From contig JAIETE010000004.1 in the NCBI GenBank assembly GCA_019745505.1, forward strand, positions 21,063 to 85,062: 64,000 nucleotides of DNA. The letters run 5' to 3'. Below the pieces are notes generated by a model, which made no database searches, was not told where the DNA came from, and worked only from the letters and a program-made list of their open reading frames with translations. Shown in pieces: positions 1,822 through 54,288 of the stretch (position 1 is its first letter; the number at the start of each line of letters is the position of its first letter). This DNA comes from Candidatus Obscuribacterales bacterium (GTDB lineage Bacteria; Cyanobacteriota; Vampirovibrionia; Obscuribacterales; Obscuribacteraceae). Both the position numbers and the translations under genes were made by a program.

Positions 1822-4350
1822 GTGGCTGAACCGACTAACCCTTCAGGCGGCGGATCTGGAGAAAGAATCGTTCCCATTGAAGTTCGCGACGAAATGCGCA
1901 AGTCGTTTATCGACTATGCGATGTCGGTTATCGTAAGCCGCGCCATTCCTGATGTGCGCGACGGTTTGAAGCCCGTTCACAGACGCATCATCTTCGGTAT
2001 GTATGAGAGCGGTCTGGAGCCTACTGAGCGCTACCAGAAGTCCGCCAAGACGGTCGGATATGTGATGGGTAATTACCACCCGCACGGCGACTCGGCAATT
2101 TATGAATCTTTGGTCCGGATGGCACAACCGGGCTCCAGCCGTTATGTCCTTGTCGACGGACACGGCAATTTCGGCGACCTCGATAATCCGGCTGCCGCTA
2201 TGCGATATACGGAAGCCAGACTGGCTCGTATATCGATGGAGATGCTCGCCGATATCGACGCTGAAACCGTCGATATGCGTGCCAACTTCGACGACACGAG
2301 AAAAGAGCCGATTGTTCTTCCTTCTAGAGTGCCGATGTTGCTGCTCAACGGCTCTACCGGTATTGCCGTAGGTATGGCTACCAACATTCCGCCTCACAAT
2401 CTGACTGAAGTGCTGGAAGGCACGATTGCCAAAATCGACAATCCGGAGCTGACTTCCAAAGAGCTCATGCAATGGATTAAGGGACCTGACTTCCCTTCGG
2501 GCGGCGTCATCATGGGCACCGAAGGTATCGAAGAAGCTTTCGAAACCGGCAAGGGCTCTATTCCTGTGCGCGGCGAAGCGACAATCGAGCAAATTCCCGG
2601 CTCCGGCGGAAGACAGCAGCGCATGGGCATCGTTGTTACTTCATTGCCTTACACGGTCGGTCCTGAAGCTTTTGCAAAACGCGTTGCCGACATGGTGCGC
2701 GATGAGAAGCTCACAGGCATCAGCGATGTTTGCGACGAAACCAACAGGCACGGAATTCGAGTGGTCATCGAGCTGAAGCGCGACGCTCACCCGGATGTTG
2801 TTCTCAACAATCTATATAAGTTCACTCAACTTCAGCAATCTTTCCCGGTCAACACTCTTGCTCTGGTGAGAAACAAGAAAGCTGGAGCGTCTGACCAATT
2901 CAGACCGATGACTTTGTCTCTGGCGAATATTCTGCAAGAGTTCATCGACCACAGAATCGAGGTCATCACAAGACGCACCGAGTATCAACTCAAGAAGGCG
3001 CAAGCCAGAGCTCACATCCTCGAAGGCTATCTCAAAGCTCTCGAGAATATCGACAAGGTCATCAAGATTATTCGCGGTGCCGAGTCCACGGAAGAAGCTC
3101 GCCAGGCATTGATGAAGTCATTCTCCCTGGACGAAGATCAAGCCAACGCCATCCTCGAAATGCAATTGCGCAGATTGGTAGGATTGGAACGCGGCAAGAT
3201 CCAAGAAGAATACGACAAGATTCAAAAGCAAATTGCCGAATACAAGGCTATTCTCGGCAGCCGCGAGAAAGTGCTCGTCATCATCAAAGAAGAACTCAAC
3301 GAAATCAAGAACAAGTACGGCGACGAGCGCCGCACTCGCATCGAAGCTTCGGGCGCTACGGAATTGAGCAACAAAGACTTGATTCCCAACGAGCCGATGG
3401 CTGTTTTCATCACGCAACAGAACTACGTCAAGCGTATTCCGCTTGATTCGTTCAAGCGTCAAAAACGCAACACACGTGGTGTGACTGGCATGAAGACTAG
3501 GGAAGAAGACGATCTTCAACACTTCTTCACTGCCAACATGCATGATCGCTTGCTCGTATTTACATCGGGCGGACAGGTCTACTCGCTTGAGGTCATGGAT
3601 CTTCCCGAAGGTGGAAGAACGGCTCGCGGATTGGCTCTCGTCAATCTCTTGCCGATTGGTCAAGACGAGACAGTGACTGCTGTTATTCCGGTTTCGGAAT
3701 TTACGGAAGATTCATACCTGGTCATGGTGACGCGTCTGGCTTATATCAAGAAAGTCCAGATGTCCGACTTCGCCAATATTCGTCGCTCCGGCATCATTGC
3801 CATTACTCTTGGCGATGGCGACCAACTCGGTTGGGTGCGTCCGTCCAACGGCAAATCCGATGTCATCATCGGTACCGGTGACGGCATGTGCATTCGCTAC
3901 TCGGAAGACGAGTTGCGCCCCATGGGCCGCACCGCCCGCGGTGTGCGCGCCATTACGCTCAGAGAAGGCGACAAGATTGTCGGATTCGACGTCACCGAAG
4001 GTGGCGACGACTCTTACGTATTGGTCATCACTAACGATGGATTCGGCAAGCGCGTCAAATTGGACGAGTTCAGACAACAGGGTCGCGGCGGCATCGGTCT
4101 CATCGCAACCAAGTTCAAGAACGCTCAATCCAGATTGGCTGCATTGCGCGTAACAGCGGATGGTGAGCAGATCGTCATCGCTACGGCAAACGGCATAGTT
4201 GTCCGTCAGTCGGTCGATGAAATCAGCGCTCAAGGACGTATGGCGACCGGTGTTCGCATTCAGCAGCTTGGCGAAGACGATTCGGTCGTCTCGGTCAGCC
4301 CGATCGTCGAGCCGGCCGGTATCGAAGCGGAGAACGGCGAAAGCGCTTAA
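1822..4350 (+). CDS. gyrA: DNA gyrase subunit A
   Basis: Breakage-reunion subunit of type IIA topoisomerase; introduces negative supercoils together with GyrB. The N-terminal part holds the quinolone-resistance region ([18 protein letters not shown]) and the catalytic tyrosine in AMRYTEARL. The C-terminal part is a six-bladed pinwheel domain. In place of the classical GyrA-box the protein has [15 protein letters not shown], close to the STRG-type box I recall from cyanobacterial GyrA. A TTG at 1816 and a GTG at 1822 are both in frame. AGGGAG at 1807-1812 lies only 3 nt from the TTG but 9 nt from the GTG, so I chose the GTG (842 aa). A strong hairpin follows the stop. ParC is an alternative name, but the box favours GyrA. 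Confidence 0.95.
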
Positions 4351-5219: not shown

Positions 5220-5747
5220 ATGGCGAAAACGAAGCGTTTGGAACCTGGAGACTCCGGTACCATCAATACTAAGAAGTCCGAGACCAATGTCAGGACGCAC
5301 CCGGTTTTTGTCACTTCCGAGCTTGATGCGCTGCATGTAAGGCGTGTGGTTGCCAGCAATCCGAATACACCTCGTCAGGTCCTGGAGCGCTTAGCCGGCG
5401 AAGAGTCCGCTGTGATCCGGCGCCATGTCGCTCTCAATCCGAAAACCCCGGTGGAAACTCTGCGCATGCTTGCCGAAGACAGGGAGACCGACGTTCGCCT
5501 GGCAGTGGCCGAAAATGTCCATACGCCTCAAGACATACTCTGCTTGCTTTCTAGCGATCAAGATATGGATGTTCGTTATGGTGTTGCCGAAAACCCCCAT
5601 ATGCCTGAGGAGATTCTGGTTGAACTCAGCCAGGACGATAATCCTTATGTCCGCTGCCGCGCATTGAAAACTCTCCAGATGCTTGCACCGGATGTTCAAA
5701 CTCGCTTGAGCCTGATCATTCGCCAGCAGCAAGATCGCCTGAGATAG
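5220..5747 (+). CDS. LRV/HEAT-like repeat protein
   Basis: A 175-aa cytoplasmic protein without signal peptide. From about residue 40 it consists of four to five units of about 24 residues with the pattern R..VA.NP.TP...L..LA.D....VR (for example VRLAVAENVHTPQDILCLLS). This matches the leucine-rich-repeat-variant (LRV) family, an alpha-helical solenoid used for protein-protein contacts. The charged N-terminus is probably disordered. The start is the ATG at 5220 with GGAGG 8 nt upstream. It converges on the response regulator gene. Its partner is unknown. Confidence 0.8.
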   Translation: MAKTKRLEPGDSGTINTKKSETNVRTHPVFVTSELDALHVRRVVASNPNTPRQVLERLAGEESAVIRRHVALNPKTPVETLRMLAEDRETDVRLAVAENVHTPQDILCLLSSDQDMDVRYGVAENPHMPEEILVELSQDDNPYVRCRALKTLQMLAPDVQTRLSLIIRQQQDRLR

Positions 5748-5800
5748 CGTTATTACCTGTCCCAGTCCTTCAGGCTGCGGGTTTTTGAATCTGGCCTTTG

Positions 5801-5832
5801 AAAAAAAATGGGGACGCATGCGATGCGCCCCC
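5801..5832 (-). terminator. rho-independent terminator after the OmpR-type regulator
   Basis: On the minus strand a GC-rich hairpin (5832-5810: four C-G pairs, one mismatch, then a 5-bp ATGCG/CGCAT stem) is followed directly by eight T residues (complement of the A run at 5801-5808). This is a textbook terminator for the regulator ending at 5855. Confidence 0.85.
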
Positions 5833-5854
5833 ACAAATCTTTGCGACCGACTGC

Positions 5855-44050: not shown

Positions 44051-45148
44051 ATGCCGAAGGGCAAAAACGGCGATGAGAAGCCGAAGAAGTCAGCACCAAA
44101 GAATAAAGCCGTAGAGAAAGCAGACAAGACAGAAGCGGCGATGTCTGAAACTCCAAATTCGGCCGGCGAACCTAAGTCCGTTGCTAAAGCGAAAGCGGAG
44201 CCCGGTTGTGATCGCGAGCAATTAGACGCGCAGAAACTGATTGCTGCCGGCGGTGTCAGCGATGCGGATAATGAAGACGATAACGGTCCCTTTGAAGATT
44301 CGCGCATTTTCCGAATGCTGCAGGGGCTGAAACTCTCACCGGAAGAAGCACGAGAGGCGGCTGTAAATCAGCGCAATCTCTTGATTGAATCATGGAACAG
44401 CCGCGATGAACTCTATCGCGAACTGTTTGGAGAACCAAGATATGTAACACCGGGACCTTACGCACCGCCGCCGGTGTTAAAACCTGAAGATGTGGTTTTG
44501 CCGGAAGATGAGAAAGAACCGGGCGAAACCGGTGACCCCGGCAATCCGAATTTAGAAGAGCAGCATCTCAACATTCTGGTCTACGCGCCGGACCCAACCC
44601 GCCCGTATTGGACCTATGTGACGGCCGGATTGAGCAGTCCGTGGCTGCAGGAAGCACCTGCGGAAGTGACAGGTTTCGGCTGCGAAATTATGATCAAGGC
44701 TAAAGAAGACATGCCTTGGGCGGCTCAGATTCTGCGCACGTTGGCCTTCTACATTCTCAATCATGCAGGCACACTTTCTCCCGGTGTCCGTATTGATTTG
44801 AATGGACCGATAATTCCTGGTTCCGATTCGAAGCTCTCCAATATCTTTATCTGGTATCCGGATGACGCTCCTGATTGTTGGTATTACCTGCCATCCGGCG
44901 GATTCGGTTTGTTCATCGCCATCGGCATTACTCCTGACGAAAGACAATTTGCAGAGTCGATCGAAGAGTACGGCACCTGGTGCATTCAGCAAGTCTTGCG
45001 CCAGATGGGGCACGATCAGGTCACCGATCCCTATCGCGGCACCGTAATGGATCAAGAAGGAATCGGTCTGGCTCTGCTCAAGACGAAATCCTTCGCCGAT
45101 AATTTCAGAGCGAACGTAGCCTACGGCAGTGAATCGTTCGAGGGCTAA
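44051..45148 (+). CDS. suppressor-of-fused (SUFU) domain protein
   Basis: A 365-aa soluble protein. The first 75 residues are Lys/Glu/Ala-rich and probably disordered. A helical stretch (about 80-125) precedes the SUFU-type domain (about 165-360), with the family hallmark RPYWTYVTAGLSS, then GFGCEIMIKAKEDMPWAAQI and PSGGFGLFIAIGITPDE. Bacterial SUFU proteins are widespread but uncharacterised; some are linked to immunity or toxin systems. Here it is coupled to lepA (TAAATG junction), which suggests a housekeeping or ribosome-linked role, by context only. Confidence 0.85.
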   Translation: MPKGKNGDEKPKKSAPKNKAVEKADKTEAAMSETPNSAGEPKSVAKAKAEPGCDREQLDAQKLIAAGGVSDADNEDDNGPFEDSRIFRMLQGLKLSPEEAREAAVNQRNLLIESWNSRDELYRELFGEPRYVTPGPYAPPPVLKPEDVVLPEDEKEPGETGDPGNPNLEEQHLNILVYAPDPTRPYWTYVTAGLSSPWLQEAPAEVTGFGCEIMIKAKEDMPWAAQILRTLAFYILNHAGTLSPGVRIDLNGPIIPGSDSKLSNIFIWYPDDAPDCWYYLPSGGFGLFIAIGITPDERQFAESIEEYGTWCIQQVLRQMGHDQVTDPYRGTVMDQEGIGLALLKTKSFADNFRANVAYGSESFEG

Positions 45149-45246: not shown

Positions 45247-46341
45247 CTATTTCATGATCCGCCCTAAGGCTTCAGTCGCGCCTCTCAGCATCACAGCATC
45301 CAGGTTGTTGTCGGCTCTTAGAGTACCTGCTGTGTTGACACCCACTATTACGGAGGCATCCGAACCCGACGGTCCTATGCTTCCGTTGGTCGCACCTTGT
45401 AGCGAAGGCGCGGAGGCGTCTGCAGCAATAATGCTTGCGGCACCCCTGGAAGATAGTTCCTCTGCGCCTTTCTTCCATGCGTCCTTGTCGTCGGATTTAA
45501 CGGCATAGACGCTTCCGCCTGAGGTAATTAGTGTTTCGCTCGTACCATCTTTGCGGACTATTTCGGTGTGATACGAGAGTGGCTCGAAGTTGCCGTTTGT
45601 CAATCTAGCGATGTGTTTGAAGACCTTGACTCCGTTCTCATCTTCTACGCCGTCCGGATAGGATTCTAGTCCATCACATCCGATGGTGTTTACGTGTATA
45701 CCCTTTGCGATAGCAGCTTTTGACTCTGAAGTCCAATTGTAGGTGGCTCCGACTTTGTGAGGAGGCGCGTCGCCGATGAGAAAGAGCAACTTCGCAGTCT
45801 TTTCACGATCGGTCCAATGCAAATCATTGACTGCTGAATGCAGTCCGCAATCCACTGCTTCGGGACCGTCGCCGCCTCCCTCCGCGTTCAATTCAGAGAT
45901 ATTGTGCACAACCTGATCTATGTTTTCCGAAAAGTCAAAAACCTTCGTAACATAGTCGTCTCCTTTGTCTCTGTATGCCACCAGCCCAACCCTCACTATG
46001 GGCTTCTCTTTGCTGTCCCTGATTTGATTGACCATTGATTTCACTTTCGCTTTGACCGTGTCGATTTCTCCTTGCATGGATGAGGTTGTATCAATGCAAA
46101 AAGCAACGTCAAGGCGGGGGCGCTGCCCGTCTTTAGACTTAAGAGCCGGACCTACCAACTTCGAGTATGTGTCTTTTGGCTGTTTTGCACTCGTGTCTAT
46201 TGGTGTTGGTGCAATAGCTATTGTTGCAGCAGTGGGGGCGGCAGACGCGCTTTTCATTCCTTGCGCGTAGAGGTGTGAAATTAGACCGTGAACGACAAAG
46301 GCTGTCGCTACCGTGAGCAGAATTGTTTTAGGCGCGCGCAT
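45247..46341 (-). CDS. secreted VWA-domain protein
   Basis: A 364-aa protein with a signal peptide (about 1-26, ending SHLYA) and a von Willebrand factor A domain (about 75-270). The metal-adhesion site is DTTSS at 84-88, with the later FLIGDAPPHK segment for the other ligands. The region resembles VWA domains of alpha-kinase/vWKA proteins (VGLVAYRDKGDDYVTKVFDF; NAEGGGDGPEAVDCGL). The C-terminal 90 residues are Ala/Ser-rich and unrecognised. GAGG precedes the ATG. Likely an extracytoplasmic metal-dependent binding protein. Confidence 0.88.
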   Translation of the reverse strand: MRAPKTILLTVATAFVVHGLISHLYAQGMKSASAAPTAATIAIAPTPIDTSAKQPKDTYSKLVGPALKSKDGQRPRLDVAFCIDTTSSMQGEIDTVKAKVKSMVNQIRDSKEKPIVRVGLVAYRDKGDDYVTKVFDFSENIDQVVHNISELNAEGGGDGPEAVDCGLHSAVNDLHWTDREKTAKLLFLIGDAPPHKVGATYNWTSESKAAIAKGIHVNTIGCDGLESYPDGVEDENGVKVFKHIARLTNGNFEPLSYHTEIVRKDGTSETLITSGGSVYAVKSDDKDAWKKGAEELSSRGAASIIAADASAPSLQGATNGSIGPSGSDASVIVGVNTAGTLRADNNLDAVMLRGATEALGRIMK

Positions 46342-46545: not shown

Positions 46546-46761
46546 CTATTCATCGTTTTCGTCCTTGAATTTCGCCCACTTTCCCATGAGCTCGCATGCG
46601 ACAGCGACCATGTCTGGATCGAAGTCCTTTATATAATCCTTGTACTTGTCGAAGCGCACGTCCGTTCTTAGAGTTTCAAGAATTGCAAGTTCTGGCTGTC
46701 CACTGGAAAGCAGTTCAAGAAGTGCGTCCTGGAAGTCTAATAGTGTCTCCTCTTCAGGCAT
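46546..46761 (-). CDS. small partner protein of the MNIO enzyme
   Basis: A 71-aa acidic helical protein (LLDFQDALLELLSSGQPELA; FDKYKDYIKDFDPDMVAVAC). Its ATG lies inside the last codons of the MNIO gene (8-nt overlap), with GGAG 7 nt upstream, so the two are translationally coupled and expected at similar levels. The start (FQDALLELL ... RFDKYKDYI) faintly recalls the N-terminus of DUF2063/BufC-type MNIO partners (LQ.AL...L ... R...Y...V), but it is much shorter. I infer a substrate-recognition or stabilising subunit; the resemblance is weak and should be treated as a guess. Confidence 0.8.
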   Translation of the reverse strand: MPEEETLLDFQDALLELLSSGQPELAILETLRTDVRFDKYKDYIKDFDPDMVAVACELMGKWAKFKDENDE

Positions 46762-47632
46762 AACAATACTCCAGTATCTCTTCCATGGTTTCGAAATCCT
46801 CGCGAAATTCCTCCTGTGATTTTGAGTCCATCATGGTGTATCCCAGTCTTTCCAAAATCACAAATTCAACATCTGGGCAAAGTTTCAGTGCCAATGTCGC
46901 CAGGTTGAATACTTCTTGAGGAACGGCGTCGTCATGCGTATCGCGCCGTACTGCGGCGCGTTTGCCCGAGATTGAACTGCTCCAACTGCCGCCGGACAAA
47001 TGAATCTCTCGAACCTTTGAAAGTGGATAAGAATTCAGCAACTCCAATTCCGAAACGCCAAAGTTTGCGAGCTGACAATAAATATTGTGTACATCCAACA
47101 GAAGAAAACCATCAACAGAAGAAATCAATTGATCGATGAAGTCGCCTTGACGTTTTACATCTTCGAGCCCGAATGCGAATGCGAGATTCTCCAGACCTAC
47201 TGGGCATTGTGTCGCATCTGCATAGCGCTTCAACATCTCTTTGCCAATGCGCAGGGACTCCGAATTCATTGGTACTGCTAATGGTGCGCCTTGTGCAATC
47301 GGACCAGCTTCAGAGAATCCAAAATGCTCCGATGCGTGCACATACTTTCTGCTTCGAAACTCTTCTTTTGCAAACTCAAGCCACGCTTCCTGACGTTTGG
47401 AGAAGCGTGCCGATAAAGGCGATAAGTTGACGCCATGTCCGGTCAGTGCGCCTTTGTCGCTAAACTCGTCAAGAATGCCTTCGCACCATTCGCTGATGAC
47501 CGCACCATTCCACGCAAAGTCAAAGCTCCACTCTATCGCATGAACCTGATTGTTTTGAAACAGCGAAACTGTTGCCTGCTCGAAATCTTCCGTCGGCATC
47601 AGCGAAAGTCCAAGTTTAGGCTTCGTAGGCAT
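46754..47632 (-). CDS. DUF692/MNIO multinuclear non-heme iron oxidase
   Basis: A 292-aa TIM-barrel enzyme of the DUF692 family. The expected metal-binding residues are all present: H66 (LTGHGVN), H99, E102 and H103 (VHASEHFGF), E148 (GLENLAF), D180 and N183 (LLLDVHNIY), H211 (EIHLSGG), D231 and H233 (RRDTHDDAV), E261 (VILERLG). Characterised members (MbnB, TglH, ApyH, bufferin enzymes) oxidatively modify Cys or Asp/Asn side chains of ribosomally made peptides with iron and oxygen. It lies 30 nt after six genes for exported proteins that all end in Cys-Gly-x-Gly, so those tails are the likely substrate. ATG 47632 follows AGGT; an in-frame TTG lies 3 nt before it. Confidence 0.9.
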   Translation of the reverse strand: MPTKPKLGLSLMPTEDFEQATVSLFQNNQVHAIEWSFDFAWNGAVISEWCEGILDEFSDKGALTGHGVNLSPLSARFSKRQEAWLEFAKEEFRSRKYVHASEHFGFSEAGPIAQGAPLAVPMNSESLRIGKEMLKRYADATQCPVGLENLAFAFGLEDVKRQGDFIDQLISSVDGFLLLDVHNIYCQLANFGVSELELLNSYPLSKVREIHLSGGSWSSSISGKRAAVRRDTHDDAVPQEVFNLATLALKLCPDVEFVILERLGYTMMDSKSQEEFREDFETMEEILEYCYA

Positions 47633-47662
47633 CAATTCTACCTGTCATCGTTAACTCGTATT

Positions 47663-48670
47663 TTATCCCATCCCGCAGAAGCCGCTCACCCTGACCGGCG
47701 TCGCACTCCACCAAACTAGGTGTCCGCACATTCCACTCTGTGGATATAGGATGCTGTCATCCTTGATTCCAACCAGTTCAAATAGAATCTGTTTTTCAAT
47801 TTCTGCTGTTTCTGTTTTTCCCAGTAGGTAATACCATAGGACTAGGTCTCGGTGCGCTTTTCTTCGTATGTCGTTTTGTGGGGCTAGACGGTCCGTCATT
47901 TCTACAGCCCTTCTGCGGAGCATTTCACTTTCCTTGAAGTCTCTGTCACTGAACGGTGATATCTCTTTCTGTCTAAGCGAGAATTCTGCCGGGTTAGACT
48001 TTGGTATAGTGACTGGAATCAGGCTGTTGGAGAGTAAATTCAGAATGTATGTAGTTGCCTTAATCTCGGCTTCGTCAAAGGTTTCATTCTCTTTATAGTT
48101 CTCGAAGTCTGCCTCTAAAGCGGTGTTGCATCTCTTCAGTCCGACAAAATTTCCTGTTTCGCGATACATTCGCCATGCGATGAAGTGCAGTCCAAGTTTT
48201 GCGAACACGTCCGTTGATTTATTTAGTTGTTCCATCGCCATATCTATTGATGCGTTGGCAAGGAGCATATTTGCTTCCGTCGGGCGCAAAGCACTTGTAG
48301 AGTTTTGGTAAATGCTGCTTGCTTGAGTTGAACTTCCCCTTGAAGGTATTTGGTTTGTCCACGAAGAGATGATTACTTCCCAAGTTTCACGAGTCCAACC
48401 CTTGCTGGACTCATTTGCGAGATAAAGATTTCTCGTTTCGATCTCAGACTTCTCGATGTTACTCAGGTACTCTCTGGCCAACTGTAATAAGTACAGTGCG
48501 CGTATCTCCGGGGTGACCTTTGTGTTTTTGACGATCTTTTGTTCTATTGAATTGGAGGCTTCCAGAGTGAATTCAGGAAATGCGGGCAGTGGTGAACTGA
48601 GAATGCCACTGGCAAAAGCTATTGCTAGCAATGCCTTCCTCCGCTTCCGTTCGCTGTTCCGAGCTTTCAT
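47663..48670 (-). CDS. exported CGxG-tail paralogue 1 (class A)
   Basis: 335 aa. Signal peptide with a very basic start (KRRKALLAIAFASGILS, cleavage near PAFP). The body is alpha-helical repeat-like; its last third holds the block shared by all six paralogues (RRRAVEMTDRLAPQND; RKAHRDLVLWYYLLGK). The tail has CGHLVWW from C315 and ends with C332-G-M-G, the two cysteines being separated by 16 residues. GGAAG is 7 nt before the ATG at 48670; an upstream in-frame start at 48715 would bury the signal peptide. Last paralogue before the MNIO gene. No known domain assigned beyond TPR-like helices. Confidence 0.85.
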   Translation of the reverse strand: MKARNSERKRRKALLAIAFASGILSSPLPAFPEFTLEASNSIEQKIVKNTKVTPEIRALYLLQLAREYLSNIEKSEIETRNLYLANESSKGWTRETWEVIISSWTNQIPSRGSSTQASSIYQNSTSALRPTEANMLLANASIDMAMEQLNKSTDVFAKLGLHFIAWRMYRETGNFVGLKRCNTALEADFENYKENETFDEAEIKATTYILNLLSNSLIPVTIPKSNPAEFSLRQKEISPFSDRDFKESEMLRRRAVEMTDRLAPQNDIRRKAHRDLVLWYYLLGKTETAEIEKQILFELVGIKDDSILYPQSGMCGHLVWWSATPVRVSGFCGMG

Positions 48671-48695
48671 AGCTGAGCTTCCTTGATAGAAATCC

Positions 48696-49736
48696 CTAAC
48701 CCATTCCACATCCAATCTCCGCTACAGTTCCAGCCTTTCGCCACCAAACATCATGCCCACACATACCTGGTTGTGGATATAGAATGCTCTCGTCCCTAAT
48801 TCCTACGAGATCGAATAAAACGTTTTTCTCACTTTCAGCCTTTTCGCACTTGCCTAACCTTCGATACCAAAGTACTAAATCTCGATGTGCCCGCCTTCTT
48901 AAGTGATGTTCCGGCGGCAATCTGTCTGCGATTGCAAGAGCCCTAAGGCGTAGCTCTTCGCTTTCGCCGAAATCCTTTTCGGTAAACGACATCTCTTTAG
49001 GAAGAGTGTTTTCCAAGGAGGCGGTTGCATATGGACTATACTTGAGGTCTTCTGCGGAGATAAATGTTGGAATCAGATTGTGCGCCATCTGATTCAGAAC
49101 GGAGATTGTCTCATCTATCTCAATTTCGTCAATTGATGTTGCTCTCTCGCACTGCTGGAAGGCTCTTTCCAGTATCTCGTCGCAGTTTCGCATCCCCTCG
49201 ATATTTCCGGTTTCCTGAAATAACTGCGACGCGATCAAGTAAAGACGTAGTCTCGCCTCTCTATTAGTGCAGTTAGCGATCTGACGCAACGACTGATAGA
49301 TTGCTTGGTTGGCTAGGGTTTTCTCTCCTTCATTTAGAGTCTTCCTGGTTGCCGCACCCTCATTTGTTTTGGAGCTATAATGTCGTCTGACATCAATTTC
49401 TGAAAGTAGCACCCAGTCTCCAAGGCCTAATACATCCCATTGACGGATTTTCTTGTACCTCGATCTGCGGATTTCAGCATCATGCAAGCGAAGCAGTTGC
49501 ACTTCCACTTGGGCCTGTGCGCCTTCGGAAAGGTGCTTGCTCGCGTATTTGAGCAGTGATATTGCTCGCGATAATGAATCTGTTTTCTTTTCTTTCAATA
49601 TTGCGCGTACTTCAGGGTTCAAGGTTTCTTGCTTGCTTTCCGGAAAGCTGGGCAATGTCGAACTAAGTGCACCACTGGCAAATGCAATAGCTAACAATGC
49701 CTTCTTTCTCTTCAATTTCATGTTCCGAACTTTCAT
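48696..49736 (-). CDS. exported CGxG-tail paralogue 2 (class A)
   Basis: 346 aa. Signal peptide KLKRKKALLAIAFASGALSS, nearly identical to that of paralogue 1, pointing to a recent duplication. The shared C-terminal block reads LRLRALAIADRLPPEHHLRR and RAHRDLVLWYRRLGKCEKAE. The tail has C326 in GMCGHDVWW and ends C343-G-M-G with the same 16-residue gap. Extra internal cysteines exist in this copy (for example NCTNRE, MRNCDEI). The gene starts 24 nt after the stop of paralogue 3. Confidence 0.85.
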   Translation of the reverse strand: MKVRNMKLKRKKALLAIAFASGALSSTLPSFPESKQETLNPEVRAILKEKKTDSLSRAISLLKYASKHLSEGAQAQVEVQLLRLHDAEIRRSRYKKIRQWDVLGLGDWVLLSEIDVRRHYSSKTNEGAATRKTLNEGEKTLANQAIYQSLRQIANCTNREARLRLYLIASQLFQETGNIEGMRNCDEILERAFQQCERATSIDEIEIDETISVLNQMAHNLIPTFISAEDLKYSPYATASLENTLPKEMSFTEKDFGESEELRLRALAIADRLPPEHHLRRRAHRDLVLWYRRLGKCEKAESEKNVLFDLVGIRDESILYPQPGMCGHDVWWRKAGTVAEIGCGMG

Positions 49737-49760
49737 ACAGTTCTATCCCCGGCAGCAAAA

Positions 49761-50765
49761 CTAGCCCATACCGCAAGCGCCGGCAGATGTTCTTCTACTC
49801 GTTTCCCACCAGACGAGGTGACCACAACGTCCTTTTTGGGGGTATAGAATATTGTCGTCTTTTGCTCCCACTAACTTGAACAAGATTTGCTTCTGCTGTT
49901 CTGCCTTATCTTTCTTGCCAAGCTCCTTGTACCAGAGTGCTAAATCTCGGTGAGCTTTTCTTTTCACATGTTCGGTGTTTGGTAACCTATCCAGAATATT
50001 CGCGGCTTTCAGTTTTAGTCTTTCGCTATCTTCGAAATCCTTTTGGGTAAAGGGCTTTTGCTTTACCGGACTGTACCAAGGGTATGTGGGATCTTGAATT
50101 CGAATGGATACCAATTCATTTGCCCGTAAATTCAGCACTGAGGCTGCTGCCCTTATTTGTTCGAAATCAATTTCTTTATTTCTCTCGCATGAAAGCACGG
50201 CGCTTTCCAGTACTTTGTTGCATTTTTTCATGCCTTCGAGGTTTCCGATTTTTTTAAATAACTTCGATGCGATGAAGTACATGTTCAACTTCGCAAAGTC
50301 ACCAGAAGCAATATCCAGTTGTGTCACTGCTTGTTGGACTGCGGTGTTGGCAAGATTCAATCTCTGCTTTGAGTCAGATTTCGAATCCTGCGATTGATTT
50401 GTTTTGGTTTGAACGACACTGGCAATCTGGGGTGATTCTGTAGAAAAAAGGTCGGCCCATCCTTGAGCGCTGCTTTCCCATTTTTCTGGATTGCTGAGGA
50501 ACCAAGCATCAGCAGGTAAATTGTAGAACTGCATTTCAACCTTGATGATCGGTGTTTCTGTGAGATAGAGCCATGCTAGACGGAGTAAATTCGCTGCGCG
50601 AACTTCGGGTTTCATCGCCGCATTATGTACCAGGTGCTGAATCACGTCGTCTGTTTGTGCCACTTTGTTCTCGGCAGATGCAGGAAGTGGTGGCTCGGCA
50701 GCAATGATTCCACCCGCAAAAAGCAGTGCCAAAAAAGCCTTTTTCCTTTTCTCGTTGATTACCAT
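49761..50765 (-). CDS. exported CGxG-tail paralogue 3 (class A)
   Basis: 334 aa from the ATG at 50765, which begins the signal peptide (MVINEKRKKAFLALLFAGGI, cleavage near PASA). A 19-codon longer start at 50822 cannot be excluded because neither has a clear ribosome-binding site. The C-terminal block reads LKLKAANILDRLPNTEHVKR and KAHRDLALWYKELGKKDKAE. The tail has C314 in RCGHLVWWE and C331-G-M-G, again with 16 residues between. Together with paralogues 1 and 2 it forms the class with the conserved VWW insert. Confidence 0.84.
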   Translation of the reverse strand: MVINEKRKKAFLALLFAGGIIAAEPPLPASAENKVAQTDDVIQHLVHNAAMKPEVRAANLLRLAWLYLTETPIIKVEMQFYNLPADAWFLSNPEKWESSAQGWADLFSTESPQIASVVQTKTNQSQDSKSDSKQRLNLANTAVQQAVTQLDIASGDFAKLNMYFIASKLFKKIGNLEGMKKCNKVLESAVLSCERNKEIDFEQIRAAASVLNLRANELVSIRIQDPTYPWYSPVKQKPFTQKDFEDSERLKLKAANILDRLPNTEHVKRKAHRDLALWYKELGKKDKAEQQKQILFKLVGAKDDNILYPQKGRCGHLVWWETSRRTSAGACGMG

Positions 50766-50855
50766 GGCAAGTTCAATCGCCTCCGCTTCATGTTCGGACG
50801 CATCCGCTTTGTGTGAAGACATTCTACACGCATGTGCGCGTTTGAAGCGTGGTGA

Positions 50856-51845
50856 TTACCCCCTCCCGCATCCGGGGCATGGAGCGGGTGGCGGAAACAG
50901 CACATTGGGGTCATTTGACCCTAGCAGCGCTCCGAGTTTGCACAATTGTCGATTGTACTTATCTGTTTGTCCGTGCAGTTTGTACCAGGCGAGAAGATTT
51001 CTCTGCGCGAAGATGCGGTCGGAGTCTTTGGTCGGCAGTCTGTCGTAGAGCGCCATCGCGCGTAACCTGTACTTCTCTGCTGCGCTAAAATTCTGCTGGC
51101 TGACTGAGTATGAATGGTCCGATAGCTGATTGGAGACCATGCGCACGGGCGCTTGATTCATCGCATGGCGCCAGAATGGCATCGGCGCAAACAACTCAGC
51201 AAGCGAGTTCAGGTGGGCTGCAACTTCTTTGAGTTGTTTTGCCGTCAAGCTAGGGTTTTGTTCCTGGGTTGCAAGAGTTTTGTCTAATTCCGAGATCAGT
51301 CGCTGTTTCTTAGCCTTATTACCGGTAGATTCGTAGACTGGAATAGCGCTGAAAATCACATTGATTTTTTCGTTGCTTGTTGGTGCCATTCTGCTTGCCA
51401 TAGCCAGCGCGTCATCGGCAATTTTTGCTGCTTTCACCAGATCTTGCTGATGCTCGGCGTGGTCCCGTGCCTGGTCGCGCTCCATCTCCTCTTGCGACGT
51501 TCCATTCGGATAGCTGAACACGTGACGCTCGACCGTCATCGAGCTTGCCCATCCAAGCATCAGGCTGGGTTCGCTTTCCGCTTGAGGTTTCTTTCGCCAT
51601 AGTGTCAGAAACTTTTGAAAAGTGTCGTCTGCTTTCGACCGCATGCCGTTTTCACGGTATAGCCCGGCTAAATAGTAAAGCTGGTTGGCATAGCGAACGC
51701 TGAGATCTCTGTCCCGAGAATACTGGCGAAGTTCTCCCTCTGCCCGTGCGATATCTGCCTGATCCGCATGGGCTGGCAGGTTACCGGTTGCAACGCCGAG
51801 CAGCAAGGCGGACGATAGAGCTGATATGGATTTTGCTCGACGCAT
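50856..51845 (-). CDS. exported CGxG-tail paralogue 4 (class B)
   Basis: 329 aa. Signal peptide MRRAKSISALSSALLLGVAT, cleavage near PAHA. TPR-like region after it (YYLAGLYRENGMRSKADDTF), then the shared block (YRLRAMALYDRLPTKDSDR; FAQRNLLAWYKLHGQTDKY). The tail is compact: PCPGCGRG, with C323 and C326 as a CxxC pair before the final Gly-Arg-Gly. An upstream in-frame start at 51962 overlaps paralogue 5 and lacks a signal peptide, so I prefer 51845. Confidence 0.85.
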   Translation of the reverse strand: MRRAKSISALSSALLLGVATGNLPAHADQADIARAEGELRQYSRDRDLSVRYANQLYYLAGLYRENGMRSKADDTFQKFLTLWRKKPQAESEPSLMLGWASSMTVERHVFSYPNGTSQEEMERDQARDHAEHQQDLVKAAKIADDALAMASRMAPTSNEKINVIFSAIPVYESTGNKAKKQRLISELDKTLATQEQNPSLTAKQLKEVAAHLNSLAELFAPMPFWRHAMNQAPVRMVSNQLSDHSYSVSQQNFSAAEKYRLRAMALYDRLPTKDSDRIFAQRNLLAWYKLHGQTDKYNRQLCKLGALLGSNDPNVLFPPPAPCPGCGRG

Positions 51846-51937
51846 CGAAGAATGATCCCACGGATTCGGATTGAACCAATCTATCACGGGGTTCAATTCG
51901 TAGTCTGTGGGTAAAACCCTGAATTTGAGAGGGGCTT

Positions 51938-52888
51938 CTACCCCATTCCGCAGGCTGGGCAAGGTGGGGCTGGTGGGAACAATTTGTCTCGCTCTGTCGT
52001 ATGAAGCAATTTGCTCAATTGCTTTGTTTGATAATCGGCTTGCTGCTTTTGCCCATAGAGTTGGAACCAGAATGCGAGATTTCGCTGGGCGTCGATTCTG
52101 GTCGGATCGCCATCCGGAAGTCTGTTGTATTGGGCCATGGCTCGCAAGTGATAAGTTTCTGCCGCCTTGTAGTCTTTTTGTTTGACCGTGCCAGGTTTTG
52201 TCGGGGAATTGTCCGGGATTATTTTCATTTCTCCCATCATTCGTGCAGCGCGAAACGCAGGAGAAGGGGCGTACATTTGTCCCATTCGCAGAAGCATCAT
52301 GGCTACAGTTAGAATGCCGTCGCGTCCAAGCTTATCGTTGTCTTCGAGGACCTTTAATTCTTTGTCGTAAGCGGCGGTTCTCGACACCTCTTCAGGCTTC
52401 ATTCCGGCCATTCTGTAGCCTTGGATGGCGCGCAGACCATAATTCAATTTCTCGATTGAGTCGGCTGCACATTTATCGGCATACGGCTGCCCTTCTTGCA
52501 AAAGTTTTTCAGCGTGCTCCCGGAAATTTTTACGCGTTTTTTCCGGGAAGCTTGTTTCTGTGCTCAAGCTGAGTAAGGTCGTAGCATAAGCCGCGTACAT
52601 TGCCGGGAGTTTGCTGTTTGTCGGAGTGTCTTTTGTCTTTTGTGATTCGACCGCTTTCTTGAATGTATCGTCGGCTTCGCTTTGCATGCCGTTGCGAATG
52701 TAGGTGTCGGCTAGATTTGCAAGAAAAACCGGATATTGCGGGTTGGACTTTCCGACTTGCTTGACGAAATCGTTAAATCGCTTTTCTGCCTGCTCGACAG
52801 CTGCTTTATCAGCGAAAGCCGGTAAATTGCCCACGCTTACGCTCAGAGCGACAAGGGAAGTAAAAACTCTCATCGATTTGCTTTTCAT
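51938..52888 (-). CDS. exported CGxG-tail paralogue 5 (class B)
   Basis: 316 aa. Signal peptide MKSKSMRVFTSLVALSVSVG, cleavage near PAFA. A TPR-like unit (LANLADTYIRNGMQSEADDT) closely matches the one in paralogue 4. The shared block reads YHLRAMAQYNRLPDGDPTR and DAQRNLAFWFQLYGQKQQA. The protein ends PPCPACGMG with C310 and C313. A GGGG ribosome-binding stretch precedes the ATG at 52888. It starts 34 nt after the stop of paralogue 6. Confidence 0.86.
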   Translation of the reverse strand: MKSKSMRVFTSLVALSVSVGNLPAFADKAAVEQAEKRFNDFVKQVGKSNPQYPVFLANLADTYIRNGMQSEADDTFKKAVESQKTKDTPTNSKLPAMYAAYATTLLSLSTETSFPEKTRKNFREHAEKLLQEGQPYADKCAADSIEKLNYGLRAIQGYRMAGMKPEEVSRTAAYDKELKVLEDNDKLGRDGILTVAMMLLRMGQMYAPSPAFRAARMMGEMKIIPDNSPTKPGTVKQKDYKAAETYHLRAMAQYNRLPDGDPTRIDAQRNLAFWFQLYGQKQQADYQTKQLSKLLHTTERDKLFPPAPPCPACGMG

Positions 52889-52922
52889 AATGCCCCGCTC
52901 ACCGAACCGATAGCTCTTAATT

Positions 52923-53897
52923 TTACCCTCGACCACATCCATAGCACGGGTCGAATTTCGGAAAAAGAATTGTCTGGTCTGTTGTGTGCAATAGCTTGCT
53001 CAAGACCTGAATTTGGAAGTTTTCTTCTTTTGTTTGATTGAAGTAGCGATACCACTTTGCCAGTCGGCGATGAGCTTCTATCCTGCTGTAATCAGTCTCC
53101 GGCAGTCTGTCGAAAAGTTTGATGGCACGCAGTTCGTAACCTTCTGAGATTTTGAAGTCTGATTGACGCGCCAGCAAAGGATTCGGTGGCTCGGCGTCTG
53201 TGGCAAGAGTTTTGGGAAACATAGCCGCAAATCCTAAATTTGCGGGAGACTCGCAAAACGTCCTCGAGATTTCCATAAACTTTTCGGCGATGCGTGGGAT
53301 ATCGGCATTTTGCAATTTTGGGTCGTGTTCCAGAGATTGCAAAATTGTGTCGACAGCCTTCAGGCGTGCTTCTACCTGTTGAGTTCGTCCTAGAGATTTA
53401 TAGAACTTGATTGTTCCTATCATGTAATTGAGCCGACGATCTGAGTTGACTGGGAGTTTGCTGACCATCTCCAGTCCTTCCAGTACGATTTTTTCGGCAT
53501 TGGGCAAATCCGCTTCGTATGCAGCCTCCAGAACTGCATGCTCGTTCAATTGAGCGGCGGTCATTCCTTGTGTAAGCATGGGCTTGTAAGTAAGGCTCAG
53601 CGCCCAGCTCAACATCGAGCCTGGTACATCAAAGTTGTTTAAATGCGATCCAATTGCAATCGCTTTTCTGAAAGTGGTGTTTGCTTCACTTCTACGACCA
53701 TTTGCGACGTATGCGTTGGCCAATCCGATCAGTTGGAAAACGTAGGAAGCATTGTCGGTTTGCTTTTTGGCTTCGAACATCTTCACGCTAGCTTCAGCAG
53801 CTCTAAGCGCAGCAGGATTGTTTGCGCCCGCAGGAGTTGCCGCTGCCAGACCACAGATGAGTATTGAATTGAGAGCGATGCGAGATTTGAGTTTCAT
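52923..53897 (-). CDS. exported CGxG-tail paralogue 6 (class B), first gene of the MNIO operon
   Basis: 324 aa. Signal peptide MKLKSRIALNSILICGLAAA, cleavage near AGAN. TPR-like unit LIGLANAYVANGRRSEANTT, then the shared block YELRAIKLFDRLPETDYSR and EAHRRLAKWYRYFNQTKEEN. The tail is DPCYGCGRG with C318 and C321. As the 5'-most gene of the run its upstream region should hold the operon promoter. That region carries a (TTGGC)5 repeat 32-56 nt before the ATG and no clear ribosome-binding site. Confidence 0.86.
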   Translation of the reverse strand: MKLKSRIALNSILICGLAAATPAGANNPAALRAAEASVKMFEAKKQTDNASYVFQLIGLANAYVANGRRSEANTTFRKAIAIGSHLNNFDVPGSMLSWALSLTYKPMLTQGMTAAQLNEHAVLEAAYEADLPNAEKIVLEGLEMVSKLPVNSDRRLNYMIGTIKFYKSLGRTQQVEARLKAVDTILQSLEHDPKLQNADIPRIAEKFMEISRTFCESPANLGFAAMFPKTLATDAEPPNPLLARQSDFKISEGYELRAIKLFDRLPETDYSRIEAHRRLAKWYRYFNQTKEENFQIQVLSKLLHTTDQTILFPKFDPCYGCGRG

Positions 53898-53953: not shown

Positions 53954-54080
53954 GTAGCGTTTTGGCCAGCATAGTAAAAACCTCAATGCTCATTCTTCAC
54001 GCAAGCGTGTGAAATTGCACTAGGGTTAACCCTCGAGCGGGCTTGTTATTCGGACTGAAGGTGTTTCCTTTGAGCCCGGG

Positions 54081-54288
54081 CAAGTCTCGCTGACAAGTTT
54101 CGTTAGGAAGTCTCGCTGACAAGTCTCGTTAGCAAGTCTCGCTGACAAGTTTTGTTAGCAAGTCTTGCTAGGAAGTCTCGCTAGCAAGTTTCGTTTGAAA
54201 GTTATGGGGGCGAGCTTTGTTGGCAAGCTTTGTTGGCAAGCTTCGTTGGAAAGCTTCTCCGACAAAATTTGTCTGCCAGTTTTTCCTG
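54081..54288. repeat. 16-unit degenerate 13-bp tandem repeat
   Basis: Sixteen consecutive 13-bp units in unbroken register, with consensus CAAGTCTCGCTAG. Units 1-9 are close to consensus, units 11-13 form a variant (CAAGCTTTGTTGG), and units 10 and 14-16 are decayed. The last unit ends one base before the epimerase stop codon. Since 13 is not a multiple of 3 the array does not encode a regular peptide repeat. There are no unique spacers, so it is not a CRISPR array. Confidence 0.92.

Follow-up and report, generated by a model that had tools for sequence, protein, structure and literature searches.

The eight genes discussed here lie head to tail on the minus strand, from 53897 to 46546, of a 64,000-nucleotide (nt) stretch of contig JAIETE010000004.1 from a Candidatus Obscuribacterales bacterium; this whole stretch is referred to as the window. 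In order, they encode six predicted exported proteins resembling tetratricopeptide repeat (TPR) proteins (A1 to A6), an MNIO enzyme (MelH), and a small helper protein (MelHc). The gene set is probably best explained as a ChrH-subfamily cluster of the mel type; in it, a single MelH acting with MelHc would modify all six C-termini before export, giving each a Cys-Cys thioether macrocycle and a hydantoin. The tails fall into two classes that differ in the spacing of their cysteines, and it is plausible, though slightly short of an even chance, that one MNIO makes two ring sizes within this gene set: a 4-residue ring on three of the proteins and a Trp-Trp thioether loop of about 18 residues on the other three.

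The last four residues of A1 through A6 are CGRG, CGMG, CGRG, CGMG, CGMG, and CGMG. An initial annotation of this DNA had claimed that all six proteins end in CGMG or CGRG; the ends are confirmed, but the tails are not one motif. The tails of A1-A3 are narrow, with the form C-x2-CGxG (CYGCGRG, CPACGMG, and CPGCGRG), whereas those of A4-A6 are wide, with the form C-G-H-x-V-W-W-x10-C-G-M-G, in which 16 residues separate the two cysteines. A CGxG end occurs in 6 of the 112 open reading frames (ORFs) of at least 100 amino acids (aa) in the window, all six within the gene set, as compared with 7e-5 such ends per protein expected from the window composition; chance was rejected as the source of the tails on this comparison, in which the paralogues are not independent events and the 112 ORFs include overlapping spurious ones.

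Both classes recur in relatives. The tail survey drew on the window, on 150 loci (L047-L196), some of which overlap, and on 35 proteins, and counted distinct last-60-residue ends of ORFs of at least 60 aa (at least 100 aa for those of the window). It required a second Cys within 40 residues and counted fragments in, and 67 of the 160 distinct tails belong to proteins that reach 200 aa. On tail conservation in relatives, a check proposed with the initial annotation, the outcome is that the CGxG tail is kept. The last two cysteines are separated by 2 residues (108 tails), 3 (4), 15 (2), 16 (34), 17 (9), 18 (2), or 19 (1), with none of the 160 distinct tails having a gap of 4 to 14; 112 are thus narrow (gap 2-3) and 48 wide (gap 15-19). 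A Trp-Trp pair is found at one fixed place in all 48 wide tails, and the 9-13 residues that follow this fixed segment vary. In a tree of the bodies without tails, the 41 wide rows form one side of one branch with support 99; this tree covers 62 tail proteins of at least 300 aa and comes from a quick search without bootstrap, in which three long branches were flagged, along with a join in the gap-3 group that may be false. At the level of sequence, the wide-tail class is a real, sharply bounded variant. It is absent from the literature located, which for PMC12636315 means the main text, and literature searches on Obscuribacter with ribosomally synthesized and post-translationally modified peptides and on TPR with MNIO found nothing relevant.

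The position of the first cysteine ties the two classes together. In 63 of the 67 proteins of at least 200 aa, it stands four residues after the same L-x-P-like turn (41/41 wide, 3/3 gap-3, and 19/23 gap-2 tails). Because this distance is fixed, the first Cys appears to have kept its anchor, with the CGxG end having moved away from it.

Outside the shared end, the six proteins have diverged as strongly as first described, with a mean pairwise identity of 24% in the body as compared with 87% in the last four columns. Their earlier description as paralogous exported helical proteins also stands: they are paralogues, they are TPR-like, and export is predicted by eye. Each N-terminus has a basic stretch followed by a hydrophobic stretch, and AxA-like cleavage sites, judged by eye like the signal peptides, can be recognized clearly in A1-A4 and less readily in A5 and A6. 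Matches to TPR_12 are weak, exceeding the Pfam cut-off in A2 only and being very weak in A6 (E 0.065). The AlphaFold models of A2 and A5 (mean predicted local distance difference test scores of 88 and 73) consist of helical repeats. Since the top PDB matches of the A2 model in Foldseek are general TPR proteins with low TM-scores, the bodies tell little about function. A phage origin of the family was rejected, as PHROGs gave no match for A5 and A2, the two proteins queried. The unmodified LysC end peptide of A2, LFPPAPPCPACGMG, has a calculated [M+H]+ of 1357.610. A TPR-like relative of the narrow-tail proteins (G425:C1:77429-77893; L199 5262-5951) has no Cys tail, and the tail is therefore not a fixed part of the fold.

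The enzyme passes the PF05114 model with 97.6 bits against a cut-off of 25. All nine iron ligands of TglH (PMC10880893) have counterparts in MelH, seven by alignment to 8hci and two His by the GHG and SEHFG motifs, which bears out the initial assignment as a DUF692/MNIO oxidase with all expected ligands. Among NCBI models, ChrH (NF050165) matches MelH with 334.7 bits (E 6.5e-100), followed by BufB with 82.8 and HvfB with 64.2 bits; by these profile scores, the window MNIO belongs to the ChrH branch. In a 39-row MNIO tree, the window MelH and 12 relatives form one side of a branch with support 100, and the MelH of Candidatus Melainabacteria SJ512 (L053/L167) lies inside this clade. The tree holds ChrH-branch loci only and gives placement within the branch rather than an outgroup test; its neighbor labels were assigned manually, it omits L183, and the label "short" includes three neighbors of 199-240 aa.

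The 71-aa protein fits the separate helper called MelHc by Chen et al. It is 40% identical over 60 aa (E 1e-13) to the C-terminal region of the natural MNIO fusion P0128, and 41% identical over 58 aa to a 70-aa protein that follows the MNIO in a cyanobacterial genome (G197), with no match for MelHc in Pfam or NCBIfam at E up to 1. Pfam searches of the eight genes and the one after them, with E values up to 1, gave no DUF2063 partner, and no MbnC or RRE-type partner was recognized in the gene set with Pfam and NCBIfam. The genome encodes a second MNIO elsewhere (G000:C18; L185 9318-11768), an 816-aa protein that combines an MNIO domain, a weak DUF2063 match under the cut-off, and a methyltransferase domain; the 348-aa ORF before it (L185 8241-9287) has no Pfam match and contains a Phe-Ala-Cys motif three times.

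The predicted chemistry follows from published relatives. In the 2025 preprint of Chen et al., MelH with MelHc, and not MelH alone, removes 4 Da from the CPACGMG tail of MelA1 in E. coli (PMC12636315); A2 has this same tail. MelA1 is a 34-kDa secreted TPR protein that dimerizes, and substrates of more than 30 kDa are thereby reported for a ChrH-branch enzyme (PMC12636315). The initial annotation, which knew of no described system with six large substrates per enzyme, has been overtaken as regards large substrates, and the cluster type is less novel than was believed, the 2025 preprint having reported large TPR substrates for this branch. DybH causes the same 4-Da loss on the short DybA, for which nuclear magnetic resonance revealed a macrocycle and hydantoin with one free thiol (PMC12636315). 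In the solved reaction, the thiol of the upstream Cys is the ring partner (PMC10214503, PMC12636315). The enzyme branch recognizes a C-terminal motif: green fluorescent protein bearing a 7-residue tag is modified, and DybH accepts one extra residue between the cysteines (CPAACGMG) (PMC12636315).

Because the same-tail relatives MelA1 and DybA lose 4 Da, and DybA was solved as a ring with hydantoin, a ring is predicted here rather than a thiooxazole or carbon excision. MelH and MelHc would modify the C-termini of the six predicted secreted proteins before export, closing a thioether macrocycle between the two cysteines of the tail and converting the Cys-Gly-x backbone to a hydantoin, with a total loss of 4 H. 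On the narrow tails of A1-A3, this would give a 4-residue ring as in DybA; on the wide tails of A4-A6, the same chemistry would give a roughly fourfold larger ring of about 18 residues, with the invariant Trp-Trp inside it. The enzyme would still read the CGxG end in both cases and, since the place of the first cysteine is fixed, the classes would differ in how long a stretch separates the two reacting cysteines. The six tails are likely substrates of the window MNIO, and the chances are about even that A4-A6 receive the same bond across their 16 intervening residues. The tolerance of DybH for one extra residue and the existence of natural gap-3 tails favor this explanation.

The relatives used were 80 of 323 confirmed MNIOs (120 of 1205 homologues listed). 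One relative search scored 7996 candidates, and its 20 matches were all wide-tail; in another, 14 of 15 matches end in CPACGMG and one is cut off. Of 29 ChrH-like loci examined (28 of the order plus G197), 12 encode MNIOs with 69.9-89.0% identity to the window MelH, as compared with at most 50.5% in the other 17. The 13 MelH-clade clusters (the window and these 12) include 11 with wide-tail neighbors and 5 with narrow-tail TPR-like neighbors (wide only in 8, both in 3, narrow only in 2). A helper is present in all 13 and is fused in L166, and the most tail proteins per cluster, six each, are found in the window and L164. The other 17 loci have only gap-2 tails (12 loci) or no tails (5 loci), with a helper match in 10. 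Among the 53 genomes of the order, 27 have a ChrH-like MNIO scoring 200 bits or more, and 11 of these encode full-length wide-tail proteins, counted as matches with E no higher than 1e-15 that extend to the last position of the profile; the 26 genomes without such an MNIO encode none. The Fisher p of 0.0003 (0.002 when a cut-off relative in G434 is counted) is only a guide because the genomes are related. Together with the persistence of the tails in relatives, this co-occurrence upholds the initial proposal that the MNIO has the tails of full-size exported proteins as likely substrates. A phylum-wide search for wide-tail proteins among 386 genomes found them in the window's own genome only.

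Additional tail sequences were encountered in these comparisons. The window's genome encodes a seventh tail protein, ending in CHGCGMG, on a contig without an MNIO (G000:C9:31560-32441; L036, L184). In L047, a 38-aa ORF ending in VPACGMG (5725-5841) lies between tail genes and is likely the remnant of a decayed tail protein. In three metagenome-assembled genomes of Bacteroidia/Bacteroidetes (L072, L104, L122), one ChrH-like MNIO is preceded by three or four short tail peptides in tandem, whose ends include CGKCGKG, CEACGRG, CPGCGMG, and CPPCGMG; several substrates per enzyme thus occur outside this order as well.

Several observations weigh against the closure of all six tails by MelH. The gap jumps from 2-3 to 15-19 with nothing between, and the upstream Cys of wide tails may have another role. 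A glycine follows the first Cys in 47/48 wide tails as compared with 4/112 narrow tails, which a simple ring model leaves unexplained. The 334.7 bits of MelH miss the NF050165 equivalog cut-off of 600 for the chryseobasin maturase proper, and the tail ends in the A2 and A5 models are of low confidence. The proposed comparison of CGxG proteins in genomes with and without the MNIO favored the association for full-length wide-tail proteins but was less clean for fragments, which occur in 3 of the 26 genomes without a ChrH-like match, all at contig ends: a cut-off wide-type relative in G434, a narrow-type 51-aa end (CEGCGKG) in G429, and a narrow-type relative cut off before its tail in G431, the latter two being fragmented genomes of the window's genus. 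In the window's own genome (C9) and in G389, G393, G401, G417, G425, G426, and G428, tail proteins are encoded apart from any MNIO gene as well, and action at a distance must therefore be allowed.

These points bear on four other readings. It is unlikely, though worth serious attention, that only the CGMG end of wide tails is changed, with the upstream Cys-Gly-x3-Trp-Trp serving as an element for docking or folding and its Cys either staying free or entering a disulfide after export. The fixed Trp-Trp segment followed by variable residues, the short low-confidence strand pair at this segment in the A5 model, and the recognition of a C-terminal motif by the branch (PMC12636315) would all suit such an element, but the solved reaction uses the upstream Cys thiol as ring partner (PMC10214503, PMC12636315), and all 48 wide tails have the first Cys, its distance from the body matching that in narrow tails, in a survey that itself required an upstream Cys within 40 residues. 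The glycine after the first Cys could instead indicate that both Cys-Gly sites of a wide tail are oxidized as separate cores with doubled mass loss; this is distinctly improbable, as the first core is not C-terminal, has no x-G behind it, and varies at its third residue.

CPxCG sequences resemble zinc-ribbon knuckles, and A3 has a weak zf-ChsH2 match (E 0.071, under the cut-off). The tails might accordingly be metal-binding cysteine pairs, perhaps joined across a dimer such as that of MelA1 (PMC12636315), with MelH acting on something else. That is very improbable: the MelA1 tail is modified by MelH and MelHc (PMC12636315), and a zinc site needs neither a terminal Gly nor a strictly C-terminal place. 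The thiooxazole-like or carbon-excised cysteines proposed in the initial annotation are scarcely credible. The MbnB, BufB, and TglH branches do perform such chemistry (PMC10214503, PMC12452194), but MelH falls in the ChrH branch by a wide margin (334.7 vs 82.8 bits), the gene set has no recognized DUF2063, MbnC, or RRE-type partner, and same-tail relatives show either a 4-Da loss without thiooxazole ultraviolet absorbance or a methylated +10-Da product (PMC10214503, PMC12636315). Thiooxazole formation and carbon excision were rejected on this branch placement and these products.

If wide tails are indeed closed by the predicted thioether ring, a MelH-type enzyme would act as a stapler of proteins, joining cysteines with 15-19 intervening residues at the C-terminus of exported proteins, with a short end tag as its guide. 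The ring would be far larger than any shown for this branch and fixed across a whole protein lineage (48 distinct tails), which would widen MNIO chemistry and provide a means of building looped protein ends. With spacings of 2, 3, and 15-19 occurring naturally in one enzyme clade, ring size is directly testable. Why one tail persists while the TPR-like bodies drifted to 24% identity is a further question. Because diverse TPR-like bodies carry one tail, a low-confidence guess is that the proteins are a set of diversified adaptors of the TPR type, all presenting the same hardened and thiol-bearing head to a partner that they share outside the cytoplasm.

The initial outline of the locus as eight minus-strand genes, head to tail with gaps of 24-92 nt and an overlap at the end, holds throughout (Table 1). 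With the likely starts, which were picked by eye and on which lengths and gaps depend, the gaps from A1 to MelH are 34, 92, 33, 24, 25, and 30 nt, and the start of MelHc overlaps MelH by 8 nt. The ORFs of A2, A3, and A6 remain open beyond the chosen starts, to 52942, 51962, and 48715.

Table 1. Genes of the mel-type set in the window, in order on the minus strand.
Gene	Position	Strand	Product	Tail (codons)
A1	52923..53897	-	TPR-like predicted exported protein, 324 aa	narrow, CYGCGRG (52926-52946)
A2	51938..52888	-	TPR-like predicted exported protein, 316 aa	narrow, CPACGMG (51941-51961)
A3	50856..51845	-	TPR-like predicted exported protein, 329 aa	narrow, CPGCGRG (50859-50879)
A4	49761..50822	-	TPR-like predicted exported protein, 353 aa (334 from ATG at 50765)	wide, CGHLVWWETSRRTSAGACGMG (49764-49826)
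A5	48696..49736	-	TPR-like predicted exported protein, 346 aa	wide, CGHDVWWRKAGTVAEIGCGMG (48699-48761)
A6	47663..48670	-	TPR-like predicted exported protein, 335 aa	wide, CGHLVWWSATPVRVSGFCGMG (47666-47728)
MelH	46754..47632	-	MNIO, ChrH branch by profile scores, 292 aa from ATG; TTG one codon upstream	
MelHc	46546..46761	-	putative 71-aa helper; ChrH C-terminal domain as separate protein	

Beyond the tail proteins and the MNIO, no further gene is common to more than five of the 13 loci among ORFs of at least 80 aa, a minimum that leaves out MelHc; the five sharing loci comprise the window plus four near relatives that show synteny. A SUFU-domain protein (44051-45148; PF05076, 70.5 bits) stays beside the cluster in the four near relatives. 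A VWA-domain protein on the same strand downstream (45247-46341) was left out of the cluster because only three near relatives retain it. Between an epimerase gene and A1 (54080-54256) lie imperfect tandem repeats of 13/26 bases.

Among known systems, the bufferins and oxazolins (BufABC, HvfABC) resemble the window cluster in having an MNIO that acts on exported Cys-bearing products and differ in their DUF2063 partner, motifs, and enzyme branch (PMC12452194). The ChrA/ChrH chryseobasin system of Chryseobacterium shares the CPACGMG C-terminus and a ChrH-branch MNIO, and its product has a Cys-to-Cys ring and hydantoin; in contrast to the window, the substrate is a short peptide, the +10-Da product is S-methylated, and the C-terminal domain is fused in ChrH (PMC10214503). 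The substrate form of this subfamily (CPxCGxG or C-x2-CGxG) is found in A1-A3 but not in A4-A6, with their 16 residues between the cysteines. DybA/DybH of Dyadobacter relies on C-terminal motif recognition and yields the unmethylated -4-Da ring and hydantoin expected in the window; it differs in its lipoprotein peptide substrate, its ring of 4 (engineered 5) residues, and its fused helper domain (PMC12636315).

The mel cluster of SJ512 is published, and L053/L167 is its contig, from a genome in the window's genus: the LysC end peptide of its tail protein at 3277-4260 has a calculated mass of 1388.616, as compared with 1388.62 published for MelA1. This locus has two tail proteins rather than six, one of them a wide-tail protein (L053 5380-6366); the main text of PMC12636315 describes only the narrow tail of MelA1 and does not use the term MelA2. 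The window has the same mel-type make-up of a large predicted TPR substrate with a signal peptide (by eye), MelH, and a separate MelHc, and the likeness extends to the MelH, 75% identical between the two, and to an exported TPR protein that ends, like A2, in CPACGMG.

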